DNA from: Kitasatospora sp. NBC_00374
Lineage (GTDB): Bacteria; Actinomycetota; Actinomycetes; Streptomycetales; Streptomycetaceae
Direction of reading: 5' to 3'
NCBI RefSeq assembly: GCF_041434935.1
Contig: NZ_CP107964.1
Coordinates: forward strand, 7,113,001-7,177,000
Length of the DNA: 64,000 nucleotides
Part shown: positions 39,606 to 41,864 of the stretch, piece after piece
Numbering within the stretch: the stretch's first letter is position 1
How the letters are laid out: each line of letters opens with the position of its first letter
Position numbers and translations under genes: made by a program
Notes under the pieces: generated by a model
The model's database searches: none
What the model was told of the DNA's origin: nothing
The model's input: the letters and a program-made list of their open reading frames with translations, nothing else

Positions 39606-40280
39606 GTGAACCCGATCCTCAACCAGGTCCCCTACTACTCCCAGTGGGAGTCCCCCGAGCTGGTGCCGGACATCCTGGCCGGCACCGTCCAGGCCGGCGA
39701 CGACCCGCTCTGGGAACGCTCCGGCGCGGTGAGCGAGGAGGAGTACACCTACTGGTCCTGGCGGATCTGCGGGATGGCCTGCCTGCGGATGGTGCTCGAC
39801 TTCTGGTGGGGGGTCGCCCCGGCCTCGATCCGGCTCGCCGAGGAGTGCCTGGCGGCCGGGGCGTACGTCCGGCACCCGGACGGGCGGCTGGACGGGCTGA
39901 TCCACGGCCCGTTCGCGGAGTACGTCCGGACCCGCTGGGGCCTGTACGCCGAGGCCCGCGACCCGCTGCCGATGAAGGAGCTCGCCGCCCAGATCGAGGG
40001 CGGACGGCTGCTGGTGCTCTCCGTCCACCCGGGCATCCGCACCCTCGACCCGGAGCCGGCCCGCAAGGGCGGCCACCTGGTGCTCGGGGTCGGCGCCAAC
40101 GACCGGGAACTGCTGATCCACAACCCGTCCGGCTTCCCCGACGGCTCGCAGCAGTACGCCCGGGTGCCGTGGGCGGACCTGTCCCGCTTCTACGCCGGGC
40201 GGGGCATCCTGCTCGGACCACCCCGGCGCGGCCGGGTCAGCGCCGGGACCGGACGCCGCTCGGTCGCGCCCGGGCACTGA
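39606..40280 (+). CDS. C39-like (peptidase_C39_2) papain-fold protein
   Basis: A 224-residue protein with the peptidase_C39_2 pattern. NQVPYYSQW at the start supplies the oxyanion Gln region, the Cys lies in WRICGMACLRMVL, the His in KGGHLVLGVGAND, and the acidic/Asn partner in LIHNPSGF. Such proteins can be cysteine peptidases or bind peptides. No signal peptide is seen, which is unusual for secreted C39_2 proteins, so it may act in the cytoplasm. The GTG at 39606 is taken as the start because the longer frame lies in the hairpin region. Confidence 0.82.
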   Translation: MNPILNQVPYYSQWESPELVPDILAGTVQAGDDPLWERSGAVSEEEYTYWSWRICGMACLRMVLDFWWGVAPASIRLAEECLAAGAYVRHPDGRLDGLIHGPFAEYVRTRWGLYAEARDPLPMKELAAQIEGGRLLVLSVHPGIRTLDPEPARKGGHLVLGVGANDRELLIHNPSGFPDGSQQYARVPWADLSRFYAGRGILLGPPRRGRVSAGTGRRSVAPGH

Positions 40281-40327
40281 CGCGGCGGCCGGGACGCCTC
40301 GGGACGGACGCGGGTCGCGGGGAGGGA

Positions 40328-40354
40328 CCGCGCCGTACGAGCCGGTCGGCGCGG
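40328..40354. terminator. Possible bidirectional terminator
   Basis: CCGCGCCG / CGGCGCGG, an 8-base stem with an 11-base loop, lies between the convergent C39-like and GNAT–AAA genes. The stem is short, so confidence is modest. Confidence 0.45.
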
Positions 40355-40416
40355 CCGTGCGGGGGACGCCGCGGCCCGCGAGCGCGATGTCGGCGCGGCG
40401 CCCGACCGGGGGCAGG

Positions 40417-41685
40417 TCAGGTACGGCCGTAGCGGGTGGTCTGGTCGGCGAACTCCAGTGCCATGTCACTGGTGACGGTGGGGCGGGTGCGACGGATGGT
40501 GACGAGGTAGTCCTCGGTGGCGGGATGGGTCCGCTTCCCCGTGTCCAGGGTGCGTTCGAACACTGTCTGGGCGACGGCGCGGGCGGCCTGCGCGATGTCC
40601 GCCGGAGTGAAGCCTTCGGACGCGTCGGCGAGCACACCGATGTCGGCCTCGGCCTCCGCCCGGGCGAGGTAGCTGGTCCACAGCGCGCAGCGGGCCTCGT
40701 GGTCCGGCGGCCCGATCGGCAGCACGTAGTCGAAGCGGCCGTGCCGCAGGAACGCCGGGTCGAGGGCGGCCACGTTGTTGGTGGCGCAGACCAGCAGCCG
40801 GTCCGCCCGCTCGCGGAACCGCACGATCGACTTCAGCAGCTCGTTCACCACCCCGACCGCCGCCGGGTCGGCGCTGCTGCGGGTGCCGGCCACCTCCTCG
40901 ACCTCGTCGATGAAGACCAGGGCGGTGTCGAGCTGGGCGATCTCCTCGAACCGGCGGCTCAGCCCGTTCGCCAGGCCGTCCTCCAGCGCCAGCCGGGACG
41001 GGAACAGCTCCACGTACGGCCAGCCCAGCCGGCCGGCGACGGCCCTGGCGAAGGTGCTCTTGCCCGTCCCGGGCGGCCCGAACAGGACGACGGCCTGCGG
41101 TGGCTCCACGCCGTGCTGGGAGGCGAGCTCGGGGTGCGCCAGCGGCAGCACGAGGCGGCGTTCGATCAGTTCCTTCTCCCGCGCCATCCCGGCCAGCCGG
41201 CCCCACAGCCCGGACGGCGGCTCGACCGCGCCGAGCGAGGACAGCAGGACGACGTCCCGGGCCCGTACGGAGCGGCTCTTCTCGAAGTACGTCACGCCCT
41301 CGCGGGGCCGGAAGCCGCTGTTGCGCAGGGCGGCGGCGCCGGTCCCGTTCTCGGGGAGCACCGCGGTCAGGGTGCGGGCGCCGGCGGCCTGCAACCGGGG
41401 TTCCAGCGCGGACAGCAGAGCGCTGCCCAGGCCCAGATGGCGCCAGGCCCGGTGCAGGTTGATCCGCAGCACCCAGGCGCGCTCGCCCTCCACCCGGGCC
41501 ACCGCCGCGCCGACCAGCTGGCCGTCGGCCACGGCGACCACGCTGGGGTGCCGTGCCTGCAGCGCGGCGACCACGTCGGCGAGGTGGAAGACGGCGGGCC
41601 CGTCGGAGCCGCTGTTCTCGGCGTCGAGCCGGACGATCGCCTCCAGATCCTCCGGCACGAAGTCCCGTACATGCCAGCCTGTCAT
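40417..41685 (-). CDS. GNAT acetyltransferase–AAA ATPase fusion protein
   Basis: A 422-residue two-domain protein. Residues about 1-135 form a GNAT domain; the acetyl-CoA loop is RHLGLGSALL at 82-91 and the fold runs to GFRPREGVTYFEKS. Residues about 165-420 form an AAA module. Walker A is GPPGTGKS (203-210), Walker B LVFIDE (ending near 261), sensor 1 is ATNN and the arginine-finger region is RHGRFDYVLP, as in FtsH/p97-like ATPases. No protease or membrane part is present. The AAA ring could remodel a target that the GNAT domain acetylates. It stands alone. The ATG at 41685 gives a full GNAT N-terminus. Confidence 0.88.
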   Translation of the reverse strand: MTGWHVRDFVPEDLEAIVRLDAENSGSDGPAVFHLADVVAALQARHPSVVAVADGQLVGAAVARVEGERAWVLRINLHRAWRHLGLGSALLSALEPRLQAAGARTLTAVLPENGTGAAALRNSGFRPREGVTYFEKSRSVRARDVVLLSSLGAVEPPSGLWGRLAGMAREKELIERRLVLPLAHPELASQHGVEPPQAVVLFGPPGTGKSTFARAVAGRLGWPYVELFPSRLALEDGLANGLSRRFEEIAQLDTALVFIDEVEEVAGTRSSADPAAVGVVNELLKSIVRFRERADRLLVCATNNVAALDPAFLRHGRFDYVLPIGPPDHEARCALWTSYLARAEAEADIGVLADASEGFTPADIAQAARAVAQTVFERTLDTGKRTHPATEDYLVTIRRTRPTVTSDMALEFADQTTRYGRT

Positions 41686-41864
41686 CGGCCCGCCTCCGAT
41701 CCGTCCGTCGCCGATCCGGCACTCCTCCCATCATCGGCCCGTGGGGCGCGCGGGGGCGGGTGGCCGAGCGGACGGGAGGGGTGAGGCGGGAGGGGACGGA
41801 CATGAGAGCGCCCGGCCGGGGGAGGCCGGTCGGGCGGCGGGGGAGCGGGGGAGCGGGGCGGCAG

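Follow-up and report, generated by a model that had tools for sequence, protein, structure and literature searches.

A conserved actinobacterial fusion of a GNAT-fold domain to a classic-clade AAA module in Kitasatospora sp. NBC_00374

The stretch of the Kitasatospora sp. NBC_00374 genome analyzed here (the window, 64,000 nucleotides; contig NZ_CP107964.1, positions 7,113,001 to 7,177,000) contains a gene that appears to join an acetyltransferase to an AAA ATPase, which raises the question of whether the two halves form one conserved protein and what such a protein would do. The initial annotation suggested a ring that both unfolds and acetylates its target. The gene is a complete open reading frame on the minus strand (ATG at 41685, stop at 40417), encoding a single chain of 422 amino acids with an N-terminal GNAT fold (residues 1-140) followed by one classic-clade AAA module (159-422). 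Pfam assigned Acetyltransf_1 (PF00583, residues 44-113, E-value 1.1e-8, above the cut-off) and AAA (PF00004, residues 199-324, E-value 1.3e-22), with a weak match to AAA_lid_3. No protease domain was found by Pfam, and the chain stops after the AAA lid, in agreement with the initial annotation. In the AlphaFold2 monomer model, built from an alignment of 47 sequences (mean pLDDT 89, pTM 0.70), a complete GNAT fold, a linker helix, the AAA core and the lid follow one another. Finally, 141 distinct sequences of the same architecture were aligned, all from Actinomycetota, and the ATPase residues invariant among them argue against a chance reading frame. The fusion is thus real by its complete reading frame, Pfam domains, predicted fold and relatives. 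Coordinates of the features are listed in Table 1.

Table 1. Features of the GNAT-AAA gene and its surroundings, in window coordinates.
Feature	Position	Strand	Evidence
GNAT-AAA fusion gene, 422 aa	40417..41685	-	same architecture in 141 distinct sequences
GNAT-fold domain, residues 1-140	41266..41685	-	PF00583; AlphaFold2 pLDDT 89; Ard1, RimI, YpeA fold matches
Acetyl-CoA pyrophosphate loop R82-H-L-G85-L-G87	41425..41442	-	G85 and G/A at 87 in 128/141
L120, where GNATs usually carry the catalytic Tyr	41326..41328	-	L 127, F 13, M 1 of 141
Linker with helix, residues 141-158	41212..41265	-	K136-to-W161 spacing 25 residues in 139/141
Classic-clade AAA large subdomain, residues 159-330	40696..41211	-	PF00004; CDC48/VCP best by sequence; p97/spastin/Vps4 Z ~26
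Walker A GPPGTGKS, residues 203-210	41056..41079	-	invariant through K209, 141/141
Pore-loop-1 region LALEDGLANG, residues 232-241	40963..40992	-	aligns with K-W-V-G of archaeal VAT, shorter
Walker B VFIDEV, residues 257-262	40900..40917	-	D260, E261 invariant, 141/141
Sensor-1 N303 and arginine fingers R314, R317	40735..40779	-	invariant, 141/141
C-terminal lid, residues 331-422	40420..40695	-	reaches VAT D2 C-terminal helices; D363, R421 invariant
Segment missing in genome G002, the locus being otherwise syntenic	40281..41849		blastn blocks stop at 40280, restart at 41850
Promoter-like element CGATGATGGGAG, ~40 bases before the start codon	41725..41736	-	ATGATGG enrichment upstream of homologues

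The family seems to be restricted to Actinomycetota, as judged from the best 80 matches in GTDB contigs (80/80 actinobacterial), an even sample of the phylum and 23 matching plasmid records, all actinobacterial. In the phylum sample it occurs in 29 of 396 genomes, some of them outside the class of Kitasatospora. Within the genus, at least one copy is present in 17 of the 37 genomes (the present one included), and six genomes have a close (>70% identity) counterpart of the 422-residue protein. The genome itself carries a second GNAT-AAA copy with 52% identity. A fragment matching only family residues 293-417 (G005:C3:5481839-5482225) is probably a decayed copy. The domain pair is already present in automatic naming: NCBI labels the proteins on the plasmid records as bifunctional GNAT/ATP-binding protein or simply GNAT, and its "bifunctional GNAT family N-acetyltransferase/ATP-binding protein" is a computed name for the same architecture, with no assigned function. 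No published study of the fusion was found in the searchable literature, where most subscription journals are absent, and in that literature its function is unstudied.

The key residues of the motor are unchanged across the alignment: the GPPGTGK motif, D260-E261, N303, D363 and both arginine fingers of the second region of homology R-x-G-R-F-D (R314 and R317), so that Walker A, Walker B, sensor 1 and the arginine fingers are intact, as had been proposed. Among solved structures, sequence comparison ranked VCP-like ATPases, CDC48 and p97 best, with the VAT D2 alignment extending into the C-terminal helices. In fold comparison p97 (CDC48 D2), spastin, FIGL-1 and Vps4 are tied at Z 25-26. Of the earlier description as FtsH/p97-like, the likeness to CDC48/VCP D2, spastin and Vps4 stands, but FtsH is more distant; membership in the FtsH family was rejected, as there is no C-terminal zinc metalloprotease. 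The classic-clade core, Walker A and B, sensor 1 and two arginine fingers are shared with CDC48/VCP/VAT and spastin/Vps4, and the lid resembles that of VAT D2. However, CDC48 has two AAA modules and the present family one, the CDC48 N-domain is replaced by GNAT, and the protein ends with the invariant R421 and one further residue, unlike the CDC48/spastin/Vps4 type. Membership in CDC48/VCP proper was also rejected, given the single AAA module joined to GNAT and a score of 115.6 bits where the NCBIfam cut-off is 802.65. Another actinobacterial protein, Cpa, does belong with the CDC48/VCP/VAT group (PMC6017811).

Pore loop 1 of the family is shortened compared with VAT and has no conserved aromatic residue. 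Position 236 is tyrosine in 38 of 141 members and aspartate here, so the aromatic that marks a threading unfoldase is missing from the 422-residue protein. The shortened loop and the non-conserved aromatic make classical threading uncertain, less certain than ATP hydrolysis.

Several observations show that the two halves belong together. The final GNAT strand and the AAA module are 25 residues apart in all but two members. Pairwise identities of GNAT and AAA are correlated over all pairs (Spearman 0.80), with none of 200 label permutations reaching this value. Together, the fixed linker length and the correlated identities indicate that the halves stay together. No AAA-only sister without GNAT was found among 61 sampled genomes, where scores fall from ~348 bits for the fusion to ~106 bits for a fragment, followed by generic AAA proteins; no intermediate score was seen. 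The union of the two domains is old and fixed. The halves are conserved to different degrees, as the mean entropy in the family alignment is 1.00 bit for AAA and 1.71 bit for GNAT, and of the two it is the ATPase that looks indispensable.

The GNAT domain modelled alone is also well predicted by AlphaFold2 (pLDDT 89, pTM 0.83). Its best Foldseek match is YpeA; in VIA-align comparisons it matched Sulfolobus Ard1 with Z 15.9 (rmsd 2.9, 130 aligned residues) and RimI with Z 14.6 (rmsd 4.2, 133 aligned). The protein N-acetyltransferases Ard1, NatA/NatC and RimI are among the best fold matches, but many other GNATs tie with them, and aminoglycoside and phosphinothricin acetyltransferases are likewise similar in fold; because of these ties the substrate is not readable from fold matches. 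The R-x-x-G-x-G loop of the ACETYLTRANSFERASE half is intact here, with the acetyl-CoA-binding residues R82-x-x-G85-x-G87 kept on alignment. The fold and this loop are common to RimI, Ard1 (Naa10) and YpeA. The differences from these enzymes are the AAA fusion, the replacement of the motif-B tyrosine by Leu, Phe or Met, and the loss of the CoA loop in one clade.

The tyrosine, which normally acts as the general acid, is expected four residues ahead of the motif-B G-F/Y. L120 occupies this position in the 422-residue protein, whereas YpeA, the nearest solved GNAT relative, has Tyr, and the canonical residue is absent in 141/141 members. Many GNATs carry a general base on the strands corresponding to columns 69-77 and 105-110, and no conserved acidic residue was found in these columns among the 141 sequences. 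Some GNATs are active without the motif-B tyrosine, using other catalytic residues, and therefore the missing tyrosine is compatible with activity. Of the "complete acetyltransferase" of the initial annotation, the fold and the acetyl-CoA loop are present, but the usual tyrosine is not. The CoA-loop pattern [QR]-x-x-G-x-[GA] is not matched by 13 of the 141 sequences, three of them deviating only through a single substitution at position 87. In a tree built from AAA columns alone, seven of the eight dereplicated sequences that deviate sit in one well-supported clade of eight. The ATPase of this clade is unchanged and the GNAT fold signature is kept; with the loop lost, GNAT must have a role there other than the usual acetyl-CoA binding. 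Judged from the alignment, the acetylation half of the original idea appears weaker than the fusion half.

Two more specific functions of the GNAT domain were considered. First, the protein could be a dual enzyme, in which a client unfolded or extracted by the ring is acetylated by the GNAT domain as it becomes exposed. The acetyl-CoA loop found in most members, the present protein included, the constant spacing of the domains and a GNAT fold ranking alongside N-terminal acetyltransferases are all consistent with this function; yet the tyrosine missing throughout, the strands devoid of a conserved acidic residue, the loss of the CoA loop in a clade whose ATPase is unchanged and the non-conserved pore aromatic make it rather doubtful. 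Second, GNAT could be a sensor, in which binding of acetyl-CoA gates the ATPase and links remodelling to the metabolic state. A CoA loop mostly conserved next to a motif-B tyrosine that is not, a constant linker suggestive of conformational coupling, and the ATPase being the invariant half all fit a sensor. We nevertheless consider it fairly improbable, since other residues can serve catalysis in GNATs and the clade without the CoA loop would have to be constitutive. Sequence does not separate these two functions. A broader formulation, an acetyl-CoA-dependent remodeller whose GNAT domain couples ATP-driven remodelling either to acetylation of the client or to sensing of acetyl-CoA, is put forward tentatively, at less than even confidence; such a combination is not described in the searchable literature.

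Two further explanations are unlikely. The protein could acetylate a small molecule or itself, with AAA merely an oligomerisation or regulatory part, as might be expected from the fold likeness to aminoglycoside and phosphinothricin acetyltransferases and from a patchy, single-gene distribution. However, the invariance of the AAA catalytic residues, far better conserved than GNAT, and the disappearance of the CoA loop from a clade render this very improbable. The other explanation, an anti-phage defence ATPase related to IetA of the IetAS system, stems from partial PADLOC and NCBIfam matches over the similar AAA core. We regard it as extremely improbable, as the match is confined to approximately residues 179-374 and scores 74.8 bits against the NCBIfam cut-off of 510, CDC48 profiles score higher, and no IetS subtilisin was seen among the inspected neighbours, where C39-type peptidase and HTH_67 genes are found instead. 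On the same grounds, membership in the IetA defence family was rejected. A phage origin was rejected as well, phage and viral-contig matches being of low identity and limited to the AAA core.

The motor being the constant half, and its relatives being remodellers of proteins, a single-ring remodeller carrying GNAT as its N-domain is the most cautious interpretation. In its full form, to which we give about even weight, the protein would be an accessory remodeller of the CDC48/spastin/Vps4 type, working as a single ring and possibly linked to stress, with GNAT as the client-handling N-domain. The subunits would assemble into a ring, as the arginine fingers must reach the neighbouring subunit, and ATP hydrolysis would power the remodelling stroke. 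The rigidly linked GNAT domain, expected to bind acetyl-CoA in most members, would pick the client, which might be a protein N-terminus or a lysine, and may either acetylate it or read the acetyl-CoA level. A precedent for an ATPase and GNAT in one chain exists in TmcA/NAT10, the ATP-driven RNA acetyltransferases; TmcA has an ATPase of the helicase type and acts on tRNA, in contrast to the protein-remodelling AAA module here.

In line with the initial annotation, the gene stands alone: its downstream neighbour, a C39-type peptidase gene, is convergent, and the HTH_67 gene on its upstream side is unrelated. In genome G002 these two flanking genes are separated by a gap of ~70 bases, compared with ~1.57 kb here, and the ~1.57 kb insertion holds the GNAT-AAA gene alone. 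The gene is absent from the syntenic site in 29/29 other genomes shown at the locus. Close counterparts in other genomes of the genus occupy different contexts, and thus the gene is gained or lost singly. Upstream of the start codon, CGATGATGGGAG is a candidate, promoter-like element. ATGATGG precedes 18 of 67 dereplicated homologues, more than any other 7-mer (in shuffled controls any 7-mer reaches at most 13), the genome contains only four matches to SGATGATGGRAG, CGATGATGGGAG being one of them, and CGATGATGG occurs some 40-55 bases upstream of many homologues of the clade to which the present protein belongs, with differing flanks. No enrichment of SigB-like, SigE-like, SigR-like, HspR, CIRCE (HrcA) or DosR sites was detected upstream.

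No conserved operon or fixed partner gene was found across genera in the neighbourhoods compared. Many Streptomyces homologues adjoin genes for a GAF-containing SpoIIE-type phosphatase and for DUF5994, CorA and SPFH proteins. DUF5994, a family of unknown function for which the literature search returned no paper, occurs near GNAT-AAA genes at G021:C1, G014:C6, G046:C10, L167, L175 and L187. In the own order at least one such gene is present in 4 of 20 loci, which partly share ancestry, against ~0.05 expected from its density in 41 relatives (67 genes in ~367 Mb, ~0.18 per Mb or ~0.003 per 15-kb locus). A Rhodococcus plasmid locus holds one too. One Rhodococcus plasmid copy has Hsp20 genes, a peroxidase-encapsulin pair and a universal stress protein nearby, and in Mycobacterium/Mycolicibacterium (L101, L104 and L112) a Lon protease gene adjoins the GNAT-AAA gene divergently. 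Further neighbours across genera include CstA, hydrogenase maturation and proton-antiporter genes. The neighbourhoods are possibly a lead toward stress physiology; this link is weakened by their partly shared ancestry and by the lack of stress-site enrichment upstream. The second copy in the own genome (L164, G000:C1:6427626-6442870) directly follows a cytochrome P450 gene and is part of a block, also holding TrkA-N and DUF308 genes, that is common to several genomes of the genus. The closest plasmid counterpart, on Kitasatospora plasmid NZ_CP108290.1 (L184), is located beside a full hyp hydrogenase maturation cluster.

A fixed GNAT-AAA fusion with an invariant motor across actinobacterial classes points to a conserved, so far unstudied device of protein quality control or signalling. 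Were acetyl-CoA binding coupled to the motor, the metabolic state of the cell, or protein acetylation, would be linked to remodelling within one chain. The clade without the CoA loop provides a natural control for which half matters, and members of the family are available in tractable streptomycetes, rhodococci and mycolicibacteria.
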